Shown here: positions 23,860 through 41,444 of the stretch, piece by piece
Position numbering within the stretch: position 1 is the first letter of the stretch
Layout of the letters: each line of letters opens with the position of its first letter
Virus record (IMG/VR): IMGVR_UViG_3300008120_000112
Location: 1-41,444 of that record
Source: a virus
Reading direction: 5' to 3' (one strand)
DNA: 41,444 nucleotides
Made by a program: the position numbers and the translations under genes
The notes under the pieces: model-generated
Seen by the model: the letters and a program-made list of their open reading frames with translations, nothing else
What the model was told of the DNA's origin: nothing
Databases searched by the model: none

Positions 23860-24102
23860 GTGGCGAAGCAGCAGAAGGACGACGATGAGATCGGCCCGCT
23901 CTATGCGGCAGAGCGGGCTGCTCGTCTTGTCATCGAGGAGACGGGCGCGGACGCCGTCGTCATCCTTTGGACATGCCAGAAGAAGCGGAGCACGCGCTTC
24001 TACCGACATCAGTTCGGCAATGCCATGCTGTGCAGCGCGATGGTGACGAAATCCGCCGAGGATCAGGATGCTGCCGAGGCCGAGGAGGATGACGACGAAT
24101 GA
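23860..24102 (+). CDS. Small acidic hypothetical protein
   Basis: 80 residues from a GTG at 23860, preceded by GGGGGG. The core (AAERAARLVIEETGADAVVILWTCQKKRSTRFYRHQFGNAM) looks like a small alpha/beta domain, followed by an acidic tail of Asp and Glu. The function is unknown. It overlaps the cysteine-rich gene by four bases, so the two are probably coexpressed. Confidence 0.6.
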   Translation: MAKQQKDDDEIGPLYAAERAARLVIEETGADAVVILWTCQKKRSTRFYRHQFGNAMLCSAMVTKSAEDQDAAEAEEDDDE

Positions 24103-26087
24103 CGATTAGCCGGCAATGCTGCTGCGGCGGGAAGACGTGCGAGCGTGACTGCCTGTTCAGCTCGGAGGTCAATTCCGGGTGCTGTCACAATCAGGAGACG
24201 CTCGTCCTGTGGTGCGAGAGACCGGGGTACAGCTTCAGTCAGCACTACCGCATCTCTCCTCCGATTCCCGGTGCGACTCCATGCGAGGTCAACTACACGA
24301 TCTCCGTTCCGACGATGGAGCCGGTGCAGGCGATCTATCGGTTCCACTCCTGTCGATACGTCGCGAGATTCGCAGACGACCCGATCGAGCTGGTCACTCT
24401 CCCGGAATATGACTGGGTTGGAGGCGAAGCCTGCAAGGATCCATGCTGCTTCCCTCAATATCAGAACGACGTGTGCTGCCAAACCCAGGTGTTCAATCCG
24501 ACCTGCTTGTGCAACACTTGGTTCGGACCCGGACTGGGAGGACTTTCTCGTGCGCGTAAGGATGATCTTGCCGCAGACCCGATGACTCAATGGTTCATCG
24601 ATCTCGTCTGCCATAAGGACGGACAGGCGCTGTCCGGAACCGTCGGCCGATTATACGATGAGTTTCTCTGCATGATCTTCTACGAGCGATGGTGGAAGAT
24701 CGCCGACACCTGCGCTCCCGCGGTTCGGATCTACGTTCCCGGATGCAACCAAGGGGTGGGGAATCCGCCGCAAAGCGATTGCGGAGGCATTCCTTTCCAA
24801 GAGGACGACCTCGTTCCGAAGTGGTGGCACTACGCGTGCAGCGGCGTTCCGCTGTTGATGAGCGATGTCGGTGATGCCGTCAGTCTTGGAATCATCACGG
24901 GCGACGAGGTTTCGTCGCTACTCAATTCGATCACGATCAAGCAGCAGCCTGATCAGGACATCCTTCAGAAGCTTGCGGATGCCGGGATCATCAGGGCTCG
25001 CGACTGGAGACCGGAGCAGCGTCAGGCATTCTTGGACCTGAACAGCAAGTTTCCGGGAGCCGGATATGGAGCATGCATCGAGGATCTCAATGCGATGGAC
25101 ACGCTTGGTCCGTTCCGAAAGCGGCTGTGCGAGCTGACGGTCGGAGTGGACAACCGTCCCGTGCTGCATAAGGACGACGTGTTCACGGGCATCGCGGGGC
25201 TTCAGGCGAACTGCATGATCAACTATCCGGGAAACCCGACGAACCAAGCTGACTACGACTACTGGCGCTCGCGTCAATGGGTCTACTTCCGAGCCGTTCC
25301 GGGCGGATGGGCGTGGAGCGGGTGGAACGTCACCGCTGGGTTTCCCGGTCTGACCGAAGAGGAAGCGATCGCGCAGGGATACAACCGGAATCCGGGCATT
25401 GGCGGTCCCGAGGTCATCGATGCTCCGCTTCAGGCATTTCGAGGAGATCCGATGCCGCCTGGGTTGTGCTCGTCCGGAAGCGGCGTCTGTCCTCCGCCAA
25501 CCGTCTTCTGCAACAACTGCATTCAGAATTGCGGCGCCATCTGCGGAACCGCCCCTCTCGCAGGATGCGATCCGCCGGAGGTCTGCCGGAAGTTCAACAT
25601 CTATCCAGGATGCGAGGGCGTCCGATTCGTTTACTCGCAGTACTACTGGAAAAACACGCTTTCGCAGGATTGCGAGGCGAGTGGCGAATACGTCTGCCTT
25701 CGATCGGTCAAGTCGTATCTCGTAGGAGCGGAGAGGACGCGAGATTCGTGGCTCGACGCGATCCCGTATACCTGCCGCAACGAGTCTCCCTCGCTCCCGG
25801 CTTTTAACAACTGGCCCGAGGTCGCATATGCGCACCTTGGGCTTGACCCGATGTGCTTGGAGATCACCGAGCCTGCGGATCCGCTCAATCCTCAGTACGA
25901 CATTTCTGATCTCTGCTGCGGCGGATACTGCATCGAATATCCGCTTGTTCCGTGCGGCGAGGGAGACGCGATCTGTCCGCAGCTCGGCCCCCACAACGAT
26001 TGTCCGGCAGTTGACGACTGCCCTCCCCACGACACCCCTCAGCAGGAGGCGTGCATCGGTCGGCCGATCGATTGCACCGAGATATGA
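24099..26087 (+). CDS. Cysteine-rich 662-residue protein, unknown
   Basis: By my count about 48 of 662 residues are cysteine (7%), in clusters at the N-terminus (CCCGGKTC, CERDC, SGCC), around 150 (DPCC, VCC, TCLC), around 465-510 (CNNCIQNCGAICG) and at the end (CCGGYCIEY). There is no signal peptide and no domain I recognise. The middle contains ordinary helical stretches and Trp/Tyr-rich segments. It is in the late operon, between the spike and a zinc-ribbon protein, so it is likely virion-associated. The cysteines might form disulfides outside the cell or bind metal. Confidence 0.7.
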   Translation: MTISRQCCCGGKTCERDCLFSSEVNSGCCHNQETLVLWCERPGYSFSQHYRISPPIPGATPCEVNYTISVPTMEPVQAIYRFHSCRYVARFADDPIELVTLPEYDWVGGEACKDPCCFPQYQNDVCCQTQVFNPTCLCNTWFGPGLGGLSRARKDDLAADPMTQWFIDLVCHKDGQALSGTVGRLYDEFLCMIFYERWWKIADTCAPAVRIYVPGCNQGVGNPPQSDCGGIPFQEDDLVPKWWHYACSGVPLLMSDVGDAVSLGIITGDEVSSLLNSITIKQQPDQDILQKLADAGIIRARDWRPEQRQAFLDLNSKFPGAGYGACIEDLNAMDTLGPFRKRLCELTVGVDNRPVLHKDDVFTGIAGLQANCMINYPGNPTNQADYDYWRSRQWVYFRAVPGGWAWSGWNVTAGFPGLTEEEAIAQGYNRNPGIGGPEVIDAPLQAFRGDPMPPGLCSSGSGVCPPPTVFCNNCIQNCGAICGTAPLAGCDPPEVCRKFNIYPGCEGVRFVYSQYYWKNTLSQDCEASGEYVCLRSVKSYLVGAERTRDSWLDAIPYTCRNESPSLPAFNNWPEVAYAHLGLDPMCLEITEPADPLNPQYDISDLCCGGYCIEYPLVPCGEGDAICPQLGPHNDCPAVDDCPPHDTPQQEACIGRPIDCTEI

Positions 26088-26506
26088 ACTACATCCCGGT
26101 CGGACGAACAACATCGGCTAAGGACATGAAGCCGAGCGTGCCACAACTTCCCGTCGTGAAGGACGAGCCTCCGATGGAGCGGAACGTCACGCCTGCGAAC
26201 GTGAAGAAGTACCTGAATGCCGAGGCGAGCCTGCATCTGTACGGCCCGGTTCCGCAGGAAGTCTTCGAGGAGCGCAAGGCTCAATGCATCGCATGCCCGA
26301 AGCGCATGGTTACCGACAAGATCCCGGATGAGATCGGGTTCTGCGCGAGCTGCGGCTGCGGCATCTCGCAGCGCGCTCGTCTCACGGTCAAGCTGACAAT
26401 GCCGGCGTCGACCTGCCCGCTCGGAAAGTGGGGCGAGGCAGACGGACGGCATCCGGGCTTCATCGACAGAATCAAGGCGACCATCGCAAAATGGGTGCTC
26501 CGCTGA
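26084..26506 (+). CDS. Zinc-ribbon-like small phage protein
   Basis: 140 residues. A Cys pattern CIACPKR, then GFCASCGCG, then CPLGKW spans about 66-120, which would hold one or two metal ions. I recall this 'C..C ... CG.CGC ... CP..KW' arrangement from late regions of other tailed phages, but not a function. ATG 26084 overlaps the previous stop (ATGA). The gene ends a few bases before the operator at 26507, so it closes the late operon. Confidence 0.65.
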   Translation: MNYIPVGRTTSAKDMKPSVPQLPVVKDEPPMERNVTPANVKKYLNAEASLHLYGPVPQEVFEERKAQCIACPKRMVTDKIPDEIGFCASCGCGISQRARLTVKLTMPASTCPLGKWGEADGRHPGFIDRIKATIAKWVLR

Positions 26507-26526
26507 ATCGCAACAAAATTTGCGAT
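26507..26526 (+). promoter_or_regulatory. Palindromic operator of the recombination operon (site B)
   Basis: ATCGCAACAAAATTTGCGAT is a perfect 7-bp inverted repeat around a 6-base spacer. Its first 18 bases match site A1 near terL at 17 of 18, and the inverted site A2 matches at 20 of 22 over a slightly longer stretch. It ends eight bases before the -35 box, a place from which an activator or a repressor could act. Confidence 0.7.
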
Positions 26527-26534
26527 CGGAGCGC

Positions 26535-26563
26535 TTGACAACCATCTAACACGAATCTACAGT
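26535..26563 (+). promoter_or_regulatory. Sigma-70-like promoter of the exonuclease-bet operon
   Basis: -35 TTGACA (26535-26540), 17-bp spacer, -10 TACAGT (26558-26563). Transcription would begin near 26570, leaving a leader of about 113 bases before the ATG at 26683. Confidence 0.75.
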
Positions 26564-26569
26564 TCCCGC

Positions 26570-26682
26570 GAGCCACCAGAACCGCCCGGAACACCCTTCC
26601 TCCCTGCCGCACGTTTCGCTCACGCGAGGTGGCTCCCCGCATCGGTTCATGGCGTGCGGCAGGGGGGATTTCCGAGGTCATC
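26570..26682 (+). promoter_or_regulatory. Structured 5' leader with interleaved stems (possible pseudoknot)
   Basis: Two complementary pairs interleave. GAGCCACC (26570-26577) can pair with GGTGGCTC (26628-26635). CCCTGCCGCACG (26602-26613) pairs with CGTGCGGCAGGG (26653-26664), and this stem extends to 16 pairs (26598-26613 with 26653-26668, one G-U). Because the second member of stem 1 lies in the loop of stem 2, the two must form a pseudoknot or exclude one another. The ribosome binding site GAGG (26674-26677) directly follows stem 2. This fits control of translation or attenuation. No known riboswitch class was recognised. Confidence 0.55.
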
Positions 26683-27498
26683 ATGGAAGTGAAGATCGTC
26701 AGGGGAATGCCGGCCGCGGAGTATCACGCGGTGCGCGCAGCATCGTCGACTCGGCTGAAGGAGATTCTCCGCAGCCCGGCGCATCTCAAGTGGATGGACG
26801 AGAACGGGAAGACGGCGGATTCGCTTGCGCTCGGCGAGGCGTTCCACATGGCTACGCTGGAGCCTGAGAAGTTCTTCGAGCAGTTCATCGTCATGCCGAA
26901 GTACGACCGCCGGACGAAGGACGGTCGCGCCGCGTTCGACATGTTCCGCGACGCCAACGCCGACAAGAAGGTGATCGATCAGGACGACTACAACTCCGTC
27001 TGCTCGATGCGCGACGCCATCATGGACCATCCCGCCGCCCACGACCTGCTCTCGATGCGGTCCGAGACCGAGCTCTCGCTGTTCTGGACCAACATGCTCG
27101 GACAGCCGTCCAAGGCTCGGATCGACGCGTACAGCGACCTAAGCCGGTGCGTGGTCGATCTGAAGAGCACGGTGTCTGCGGATCCCGGAGAGTTCGCTCG
27201 ATCGGCCTTCAAGTACGGCTACCACCTTCAGGCGGCGTGGTATCTCGATGCCGCTCGCATGGCGGGGCTCAAGACCGATTCAATCGTCTTTGTCGCCGTC
27301 GAGAAGACGCCGCCGTTCGGCGTCGCGTGCTACAGGTTCGACGAGGATTCCATCGATGCCGGCCGCGTCTCCTACATGCGGGCTATTGCGATCCTCCATG
27401 CGTGCGAGAGTTCGCGCGAGTGGCCGGGCTATTCGCCGATGATCGAGACCATCCGTTTCCCGAAGTGGCGCACCCCTGAAAGAGAGGAAGTCCTGTGA
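26683..27498 (+). CDS. Exonuclease VIII-like nuclease (PD-(D/E)XK)
   Basis: 271 residues. ETELSLFW (about 128-135), KARIDAY (144-150), VVDLKST (157-163, the D and K of the PDDEXK core) and [14 protein letters not shown] (177-190) are the ordered motifs of the RecE C-terminal / DUF3799 family. It degrades double-stranded DNA ends to leave a 3' single strand for the annealase. The ATG at 26683 has GAGG upstream. The stop overlaps the start of the Bet-type gene, as expected for a Red-like pair in one operon. Confidence 0.85.
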
Positions 27499-28385
27499 GC
27501 AACCTGGCACGAATCAATCTCGACGATGGAAAGATCGGTCTGATCTCCCGGACCATCGCGAAGGGCAGCAGCCCTGATGAACTAGAGCTCTTCATTGCGA
27601 TCTGCCGTCGCACCGGGCTCGACCCGTTCGCCCGACAGATCTACGCGATCCGTCGGTGGGACGGCCGCGAGCGACGCGAGGTCATGCAGACGCAGGTGTC
27701 GATTGACGGCGCACGCCTTGTTGCGCAGCGCAGCGGCGAGTACGCCGGTCAGGACGGCCCGTACTGGTGCGGTGAGGACGGCGTGTGGCGCGACGTTTGG
27801 CTGTCGAAGGTTCCTCCGACCGCGGCTCGCGTAGGCGTGTCCCGGAAGGGCTTCGTCGCGCCTCTGTATGCGGTGGCGCTCTGGTCTGAATACTGCCAGC
27901 GGAACAAGGAAGGTCAGCCGACCGGACAATGGCCGCGCATGCCTGCGCTCATGCTCGCCAAGTGCGCCGAGATGCTCGCCTTGCGCAAGGCATTCCCAGC
28001 CGAGCTGTCCGGGCTGTACAGCGCCGAGGAGATGAGCCACGCCGACGAGGCTCCGGCATTCTCCCCATCCGTCCTGAAGGCCGCGCATTCGGCCGAGGAT
28101 GCCCGCCAAGACGATGGGCATGACGATGCGCCCGAGGAGGCCCAGGACGAGGCCGCGACTCCTGCGGCATCCCAGGCGCCCGCAATGATGGCTCCGGCCG
28201 ACATCCGGGCGATGTTGAAGGCTCTTTCGTCCAAGGGGCTGACTCTCGACGACCTGCGTTCGGCAATGGCGAAGGCCGGGTTGTCCGGAGGCGAGAACCC
28301 CGACGGGTGGCCGGCCGAGTGGGCTGCTCGCATCAAGTCGTGGATCAAGTCTCAGAAGAGCCGAAATTCCGAAACGAGTGCCTGA
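27495..28385 (+). CDS. bet: Phage recombination protein Bet-type single-strand annealing protein
   Basis: 296 residues from a GTG that overlaps the exonuclease stop (GTGA). The Redbeta/Bet family sequence is plain: [55 protein letters not shown] and [22 protein letters not shown], then EEM. The C-terminal 100 residues are Ala- and Glu-rich and end in a small helical domain (about 230-295), probably a protein-contact module. It anneals complementary single strands in recombination and replication. A strong terminator-like hairpin follows. Confidence 0.92.
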
Positions 28386-40550: not shown

Positions 40551-41444
40551 ATGAACATCGCACTACCTCAGATTCACCCCGCCGCGCGCGCAGCGCTCGC
40601 GCTTCCCCCGTTCGAGACTCCGGAATGGCGCGCCGACTTCGGACGCGGCATCCGGCTCGCGCTCGGCGCGGCCGGCGCGCGCCCTGGATACCTCGCGCTC
40701 GCGATCGATCGCATGCGCGATGCCCTCGAGGGTACGGACCTTTACGAAGTTTCGGCGCCGGGCGCGAGCGGAAATACGAAGCTTGCGAAAAATGCCGCCG
40801 TTACGCTCGCATTCACCGGCGCGAGCGGCGCCGATTCGGGCACGTTCAACCCCTGCCCGGCGCTCGGGGCGTGTGCGAGTTTTTGCGTGCTCGGCGCCAC
40901 CTGCGGGCGCGCGCGAATGGCGCCCGATGCCATCATCGGCGCCCGTCGTCGTCGCCTTATCGCGATGCGCGCGCATCCCGTCGCTGCGGGCGCCATGCTC
41001 GCGAGCCGCGCGGCCGCGGCTCGGCGACTCGCGAACGCGCTCGGCATCCGATGCATCGCGCGGATGAATGTCGGAACCGATATCGGATTCGAGTCGATCC
41101 CGGAACTTACCGACATGCTCGGCCGCTTCGCGATCGACGCTTACGCGTACACTAAGCGCCCGGCCGCGGTCCGCTCGGCGATGCGCGGCGCCGGATACGC
41201 GGGAGCCACTCGCATCGTTTACAGTTATTCCGAACGGGCTTCCGACTCGCTCGCGTCGCAGTATCTCCGCGCGGGCGGAAACGTCGCCGTCGTCGTCGGC
41301 GGGCTCGGCCGCACCGACCCGGCCGAGAGTTTCGATACCTTCGAAATCGCGGGCGAGCGCTTCCCGATCGTCTCGGGCGACGCGACGGACGATCGGACGA
41401 CCGACGCGCCGGGTAGCGTCGTCGCCCTGCGCGGCAAAGGGCCG
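40551..41444 (+). CDS. Cys-containing protein like phage 'gene product 88' family (partial)
   Basis: At least 298 residues, still open at the window edge. FNPCPALGACASFCVLGATCG (about 100-120) carries a cluster of Cys in a pattern I know from a phage protein family sometimes labelled gene product 88, found in actinobacterial and marine phages. Other conserved-looking parts are NTKLAKNAAV, RMNVGTDIGFESIPEL and VVALRGKGP near the right edge. The product has no known biochemical role. GGGAAACC lies before the ATG. The true end is outside the window, or across position 1 if the molecule is circular. Confidence 0.65.
   Translation, partial: MNIALPQIHPAARAALALPPFETPEWRADFGRGIRLALGAAGARPGYLALAIDRMRDALEGTDLYEVSAPGASGNTKLAKNAAVTLAFTGASGADSGTFNPCPALGACASFCVLGATCGRARMAPDAIIGARRRRLIAMRAHPVAAGAMLASRAAAARRLANALGIRCIARMNVGTDIGFESIPELTDMLGRFAIDAYAYTKRPAAVRSAMRGAGYAGATRIVYSYSERASDSLASQYLRAGGNVAVVVGGLGRTDPAESFDTFEIAGERFPIVSGDATDDRTTDAPGSVVALRGKGP

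Follow-up and report, generated by a model that had tools for sequence, protein, structure and literature searches.

A probable 5'-terminal pseudoknot in the leader of exonuclease-recT operons from one phage clade

The leader of an exonuclease-recT operon in an IMG/VR virus record is very probably a real RNA element, judging from its conservation in relatives: a 5'-terminal H-type pseudoknot that is kept within one phage clade. (We refer to the record, the 41,444-base stretch of DNA that was analysed, as the window; the leader is positions 26570-26682, and the features of the leader and operon that we locate below are on the plus strand.) Phage recombination is driven by pairs of an exonuclease and an annealing protein, and recombineering is built on such pairs. 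We are not aware of any pair of this kind that is controlled by a structured RNA, and in the open-licence literature we found neither a named case of such control nor a leader of this sort. A strongly covarying pseudoknot lies at about the first base of the predicted exonuclease-recT mRNA in a clade in which exonuclease identity has fallen to about half. A knotted fold that is kept while its letters are rewritten suggests that these recombination genes have a switch or shield that has not been described before. We class the leader with the pseudoknotted cis-regulatory leaders, a kind of element that is already known.

The leader and its operon

The leader contains two helices, S1 and S2. S1 is 8 bp long, with a 5' arm (GAGCCACC) at 26570-26577 and a 3' arm (GGTGGCTC) at 26628-26635. 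S2, which is supported by complementarity and by covariation, has its 5' arm at 26598-26615 and its 3' arm at 26651-26668. Its core of 16 paired positions (26598-26613 with 26653-26668) is 94% complementary, the sole non-Watson-Crick position being a T-G wobble, and it can be extended to 18 pairs (26598-26615 with 26651-26668) with terminal wobbles. The strand order is S1a, S2a, S1b, S2b, so the two helices interleave, just as an earlier note on this DNA had described for an 8-bp and a 16-bp stem. The note also placed the ribosome binding site directly after the second stem, and there we read a Shine-Dalgarno sequence, GAGG (26674-26677), ahead of the ATG at 26683.

The first gene of the operon (26683-27498) encodes an exonuclease (Pfam DUF3799, PDDEXK-like; PHROG exonuclease VIII), and the second (27495-28385) encodes a RecT-family single-strand annealing protein (bet). 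Upstream is a sigma-70-type promoter, TTGACA and TACAGT separated by 17 nt (26535-26563, 10 of 12 matches), which predicts an RNA start at about 26570.

A palindromic, operator-like site (ATCGCAACAAAATTTGCGAT, 26507-26526, no mismatches to the pattern) lies upstream of this promoter. The site, ATCGCAAnnAAAnTTGCGAT, is present in three copies in the window, at 252-271, at 295-314 (the terminase end), and at 26507-26526 before the exonuclease promoter. The pattern gave five strand-matches at these three places, as compared to a mean of 0.07 in shuffles, and none of 100 shuffles had as many. The same site abuts the -35 element in the related loci L004 and L005. It is possibly the operator of a phage repressor or activator. 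The gene directly upstream of the leader (26051-26506) encodes a small protein with a CxxC...CxxCxC pattern; it has no Pfam family at E 0.001, and tblastn segments in other records of the family are 52-65% identical to it. A cysteine-rich ORF of 662 amino acids (24099-26087) also has no Pfam family at E 0.001.

Related leaders

A search of viral_contigs for RecT gave 134 loci, and we kept the best 80. In six of these 80, a close exonuclease lies upstream (at 44-54% identity to that of the window), and a leader of the same plan precedes all six of these exonucleases; in eight more, the upstream exonuclease is at 26-34% identity. Searches with an exonuclease alignment added L105, and genome_contigs added L186. 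(L186 is a 45.7-kb contig in a MAG labelled as an uncultured actinobacterium, a label that does not establish the host.) The family comprises nine records with eight distinct leaders: the window, L003, L004, L005, L006, L008, L105, and L186. L007 is near-identical to L006 and was left out of the counts. The exonucleases of the eight distinct members are 45-77% identical to each other, and an exonuclease gene of the same type lies downstream of the arrangement in all eight. The common plan is GCCACC, loop L1, S2a, loop L2, GGTGGC-TCC, loop L3, S2b, two or three T, the Shine-Dalgarno sequence, and ATG. Although the RecT query found these relatives, a single-sequence exonuclease query of viral_contigs found none, and blastn of window positions 26400-26900 against phages gave no match.

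We also searched by pattern. A pattern of the conserved letters hit 18 stretches of viral_contigs, and four of them are from the family (L090, L092, L095, L098); the other 14 have neither a strong S2 nor a tblastn match to the exonuclease and were rejected. A second pattern, with CTTTGGAG, had one match (L235), which we judged to be due to chance. A pattern of the promoter plus S1 hit 12 stretches, including four from the family (L090, L092, L098, L244). Among the eight others, L239 has, on its reverse strand near position 519 of the reverse complement, a promoter and then, at the same distance, GCCACCGG...CCGGTGGC. Its 7-bp crossing helix holds a Shine-Dalgarno-like GGAG and precedes another phage gene; we treated it as likely chance.

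The element is not general to operons of this type, as the exact motif GCCACC(35-75)GGTGGC was absent from up to 300 nt before the exonuclease match in 73 of 80 loci in each of two exonuclease sets. (This search would miss a leader with another S1 core, and in one of the sets some loci have less than 300 nt upstream, with less than 50 nt for L112 and L136, so that absence is not shown for those.) The motif was present in seven of the 80 best exonuclease loci in each set, and these were the same seven records. For the 73 loci of one set that lack the motif, we calculated scores for crossing helices; we inspected 26 of these loci, and none of them resembles the family. In a genome_contigs set of 49 loci, checked for matches near position 2950, CCACC...GGTGG was found on the plus strand in L186, L197, and L234; in L197 and L234 the motif is inside the matched gene, and L186 alone fits the family. 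Among 50,697 phages records, the best exonuclease is 36.6% identical to the window's (among the best 40 of 1,734 records) or 38.6% identical to that of L003 (among the best 12 of 920), and both values are below the family range. So far, the element marks one clade that is known from metagenomes.

Conservation and covariation of the two helices

Both helices are retained in all eight distinct leaders. In S1, the six core pairs (GCCACC with GGTGGC) are identical throughout, as is GGTGGCTCC on the 3' side, so the core contributes no covariation. The letters of S2 differ widely: compare CGCCTCTGTCACCGC in L003, GCTCCCGACAGACGCG in L006, and CCCCCGTCCCGCGCG in L008. The earlier note had asked for compensatory changes among aligned relatives, and this comparison, which could have gone against the helices, found two-sided changes in 12 of the 13 outer S2 pairs. 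In the whole structure of 6 S1 pairs and 13 outer S2 pairs, these 12 are all of the pairs with two-sided changes. None of 500 shuffles reached any of our measures (the covariation score was 0.68, as compared to 0.16 ± 0.04 in shuffles), and sliding the partner strand by 1-3 columns reduced pairing from 100% to 42-62%. As the 13-bp S2 arms were chosen as paired stretches, their 100% pairing holds by construction; the support for S2 comes instead from the presence of a long interleaved helix in every leader together with the two-sided changes. The register of S2 across divergent leaders was set by hand from the outer end, and the counts per column assume that register.

When members were compared two at a time, two-sided changes affected 4-10 of the 13 outer S2 pairs in every comparison except those within two close pairs of leaders (one pair changed for L004/L005 and three of 13 for L006/L105). 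Comparisons within close pairs depend less on the hand-set register, and L004 and L005 also differ on both sides at two of nine S1 pairs. L008 and L186, with exonucleases that are 71% identical, differ on both sides at seven outer S2 pairs. When we swapped S2 strands among leaders, the 5' strand paired best with its own 3' strand in all eight leaders, and the 3' strand paired best with its own 5' strand in six of eight, the exceptions being within L004/L005 and L006/L105.

S1 is supported independently of its invariant core because its inner extension covaries as well, a second outcome of the comparison that the note had suggested. The extensions are AAG/CTT, ACA/TGT, TATGA/TCATA, CGG/CTG, and TG/CA, with none in the window, L003, or L008. 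They total 16 pairs, which 4 of 20,000 shuffles reached. In swaps, a strand's own partner gave a mean of 2.00 as compared to 0.70 for others, but some foreign strands paired better (up to 7). Very probably, S1 and S2 have both been selected as RNA helices.

Another way to account for covarying arms is that the inverted repeats are kept as DNA, either as half-sites for a protein or as a structure in single-stranded DNA. Covariation alone cannot separate RNA from folded single-stranded DNA, and with only 5 G-U among 121 S2 pairs, there is little information as to the strand. However, the element lies between a promoter (a good one in seven of eight) and a ribosome binding site, and the spacing from GCCACC to GGTGGC varies from 37 to 66 nt among the leaders, which argues against a rigid pair of half-sites. 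Selection at the DNA level seems very improbable.

Coexistence or exclusion of the helices

The earlier note allowed for either a pseudoknot or mutually exclusive folds. The first of these stands: the retention of both helices in all eight leaders favours coexistence over exclusivity, and S1 and S2 look sterically compatible, judged by the lengths of the loops. It is highly likely that the two helices coexist, and an H-type pseudoknot fits better than alternative folds do. If the folds were mutually exclusive, they could form an attenuator with S2 as the stem of a terminator, and attenuation was among the functions that the note had suggested. S2 has a high G+C content, and the 8 bases that come after it include 2-5 T. 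However, in a scan of three of the eight distinct leaders for terminators, the window and L105 had no terminator-like site and L008 had one weak site that overlaps S2. This lends no support to attenuation, and S2 seems an unlikely terminator. Also, S2 is far stronger than S1 in every member (the S2 duplexes are at −28 to −40 kcal/mol), which makes a balanced switch unlikely. Together with the apparent compatibility of the helices, this leaves the attenuator as a very doubtful explanation.

The best crossing-helix score of the window leader and of each of the seven other distinct leaders exceeded those of all 300 dinucleotide shuffles. (The best-scoring crossing pair is not always S1 with S2: it is S2 with the third helix, S3, described below in L003 and L008, and S2 with a helix between S1b and the Shine-Dalgarno region in L105.) Within the window, the leader has the top score of 4,134 tiles from both strands. 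On the other hand, among 48,781 plus-strand tiles of the fetched loci, unrelated G+C-rich tiles reach 64.5, which is inside the range of the eight whole leaders (58-72), so the score alone is not diagnostic and conservation in relatives decides. The minimum-energy fold of 26570-26700 is at −56.9 kcal/mol, as compared to −47.1 ± 3.6 for shuffles (z = −2.7), and 1 of 200 shuffles folds as well. The minimum-energy folds of all eight distinct leaders keep S2 and drop S1; a nested fold can hold just one of two crossing helices. The tiles that rank next after the leader for crossing helices (21-180 and 40881-41020) are strong G+C-rich inverted repeats near the ends of the record.

A third helix, a small hairpin, and conserved loop letters

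In the four long leaders (the window, L003, L008, and L186), a helix of 6-7 bp can form between the beginning of L1 and the final bases of L3. In the window, the arms of this helix are GAACCG (26579-26584) and CGGTTC (26643-26648), and the other pairs are GAACGCA/TGCGTTC, GAGAACC/GGTTCTC, and GGAACGT/GCGTTCC. The Fisher P value is 0.0003 when just the long leaders are taken and 0.0027 with all eight; the four compact leaders alone give 0.28-0.53. The test was post hoc, as the helix was noticed before it was tested. When arms were swapped among the long leaders, their own partners were not cleanly favoured. S3 is probably real. It would cross both S1 and S2, and in the standard H-type layout it would be close to where S1 and S2 join. 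No convincing S3 was seen in the compact leaders (L004, L005, L006, and L105); instead, their S1 is longer by 3-5 bp.

Between S2a and S1b there can be a small hairpin. In the window it is TCGC-TCAC-GCGA (26616-26627), with 4 bp; L003 and L186 have 5 bp of other sequence, L008 and L105 have 3 bp, and L004, L005, and L006 have 0-1 bp.

The loops also hold conserved letters, with ACACCC in L1 in six of the eight leaders. Together with the invariance of the S1 core and of the letters on its 3' side, this suggests recognition beyond pairing. The anti-Shine-Dalgarno-like CCTCC to which the earlier note drew attention is another matter. It is present in S2a of the window, but it is found in only four of the eight leaders and has no fixed place (S2a in L004, across L1 and S2a in L008, and L2 and L3 in L186), so we rejected it as a conserved working part.

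Placement relative to the promoter and the start codon

A TTGACA-type promoter with 9-11 of 12 matches precedes seven of the eight leaders, and from the end of its -10 element to GCCACC there are 6-9 nt. The exception is L006, which lacks a good promoter (6 of 12 matches); the promoter of L105 is weak (9 of 12 matches; 51 of 1,000 shuffles are as good). Transcription is taken to start 7 nt after the -10 element. By this rule, the predicted RNA start precedes the S1 core by 0-3 nt in seven of the eight leaders, and for the window it coincides with the first base of S1 (26570). At the other end, the distance from S2 to ATG is 13-21 nt in all eight. The motif GCCACC(36-66)GGTGGC, which is its own reverse complement, occurs at one place, the leader, in each of eight virus records, several of which may be fragments. 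In the 2.3-Mb MAG of L186 there are 31 such places, as compared to 28 for a reversed control, so these are mostly due to chance.

Coding does not explain the leader: the GTG in S1b is in the frame of the exonuclease in four of the eight leaders, and in L004 there is a stop codon 15 nt upstream of the ATG. We rejected this GTG as an alternative start for the same reason (the frame is shared in 4/8).

Possible functions

Control of the recombination genes at the level of translation, which the earlier note had proposed, is plausible. In particular, we propose, with a little less than even confidence, that the leader is a translational operator that would be recognised by a protein and would work like the leader of T4 gene 32. 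In this model, the leader is a cis-acting RNA, an H-type pseudoknot that forms the very start of the exonuclease-recT mRNA and is conserved throughout the phage clade. Transcription would start at S1 or within a few bases of it, and S1 could close first; S2b would then pair with the loop of S1, and the pseudoknot would be complete before the ribosome binding site is made. Its end, 13-21 nt upstream of the ATG, would be at the edge of the site of the initiating 30S subunit. A protein, for which the operon's own single-strand annealing protein and exonuclease are the likeliest candidates, would recognise the invariant S1 core and the loop letters. Once bound, it would stabilise the pseudoknot or spread from it and lower translation when there is sufficient recombination protein. 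We favour the operator because the letters of the core are frozen while those of S2 are free, because the fold is just upstream of the ribosome site in all eight leaders, and because T4 gene 32 is a worked precedent (PMC535899). Against it, the unstructured, UUAAA-rich half of the gp32 operator has no counterpart here, and the geometry is accounted for just as well if the pseudoknot stabilises the mRNA constitutively.

That stabilising role leads to the main rival of the operator, which is that the pseudoknot is a shield: it would pair the first transcribed bases and block decay that depends on the 5' end, while leaving the ribosome binding site open and sensing nothing. The predicted start within 3 nt of GCCACC in seven of eight leaders (by the 7-nt rule), the very stable S2 duplexes, and the fact that S2 is followed merely by a short stretch with the Shine-Dalgarno sequence and ATG all fit with this. 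However, a plain 5' hairpin would suffice as a shield, and the invariant S1 letters and the frequent ACACCC would be unexpected for a mere clamp. We consider the shield to be a possible but rather doubtful explanation.

A third possibility is a small-molecule riboswitch or another RNA switch, in which S1b would pair either with S1a, leaving the ribosome site free, or with the Shine-Dalgarno region. The sequence GGAGCC, which complements the invariant GGCUCC, follows S2 in L004, L006 (and its near copy L007), and L105, and in L105 the helix between GGCUCC and GGAGCC is the best crossing partner of S2. (The Shine-Dalgarno region of L105, at 2990-2998, reads GGAGCC(A)(C), as do those in the tails of L004 and L006; this is the complement of GGCUCC at the end of S1.) GGAGCC is absent from the other five leaders (the window, L003, L005, L008, and L186, the last having GGAG only), and with three of eight distinct leaders having it, we rejected such a switch as a mechanism for the whole family. 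Also, we saw no gene context related to a ligand, and phage recombination genes would be an unusual target for a riboswitch. A switch of this type seems unlikely.

Finally, the leader could be a put-like antitermination RNA, acting on RNA polymerase as soon as the early transcript begins. The 5'-terminal position, the single copy in each phage record, and the stable structure are consistent with this, and HK022 putRNA is a precedent (PMC9378689). In contrast, the distance of 13-21 nt from S2 to ATG in all eight leaders is a constraint that antitermination does not need. We know of no requirement for put to lie at a fixed short distance from the ATG. Antitermination is quite improbable here.

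Returning to the operator, we can also frame the leader as a new family of 5'-terminal phage RNAs, in which the long form would be a three-helix pseudoknot, with S1, S2, and S3 crossing each other, and the leader would sense a recombinase. We regard this fuller description as speculative and rather unlikely in its entirety. If it is true, then the leader would bind a phage recombination protein through the invariant letters of the S1 core and those of the loops, and the exonuclease-annealing pair would be made in no greater amount than the replicating genome needs.

Comparison with known systems

Rfam 15 had no matches at the gathering score, either in the whole window or in eight leader loci (the window, L003-L008, and L105). 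A permissive search with the window leader matched seven microRNA-precursor models and a hammerhead model, each at below half of its gathering score; the best match, mir-2766 (E = 0.00024), is on the S2 hairpin, and in our reading it reflects the length of that hairpin.

The topology, S1a-S2a-hairpin-S1b-S2b, resembles P1-P2-P3 of the HDV-like ribozymes. In every member of that class, a P3 hairpin lies between the P2 and P1 strands, whereas L004, L005, and L006 lack the hairpin, so we rejected an HDV-like ribozyme. In the permissive Rfam search with the window leader, none of the matches was to an HDV-like model. Also, unlike in an HDV-like ribozyme, the predicted RNA start would coincide with the would-be cleavage site.

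STAXI is a pseudoknot RNA that is often near genes for DNA-handling proteins and is repeated two or three times (PMC2864571); the element here is instead in one copy, 5'-terminal, and before the exonuclease gene. The leader may also resemble HK022 putRNA, a structured phage RNA that acts from early transcripts (PMC9378689).

A further likeness is to the gene 32 operator of T4 and RB69. It is described as a 5' pseudoknot in a phage mRNA leader whose structure is similar while its sequence diverges; the pseudoknot spans about 28 nt, and downstream of it come over 40 nt that are less structured and contain UUAAA or UAAA repeats (PMC535899). As in gene 32, the leader here has a 5' pseudoknot on the mRNA of a protein that acts on single-stranded DNA (PMC535899), and the pseudoknot is 5' of the translation initiation region. 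The element in the window differs in that it is about 99 nt long with a long S2, precedes exonuclease and recT genes rather than that of a single-strand binding protein, has no UUAAA repeats, and leaves 13-21 nt between S2 and ATG. The leader allows for a cheap and precise test of whether phages outside the T4 group count their single-strand DNA proteins via RNA. Gene 32 is under autogenous control, and by analogy, its putative counterpart here would be control of the exonuclease-recT operon by one of its own products.
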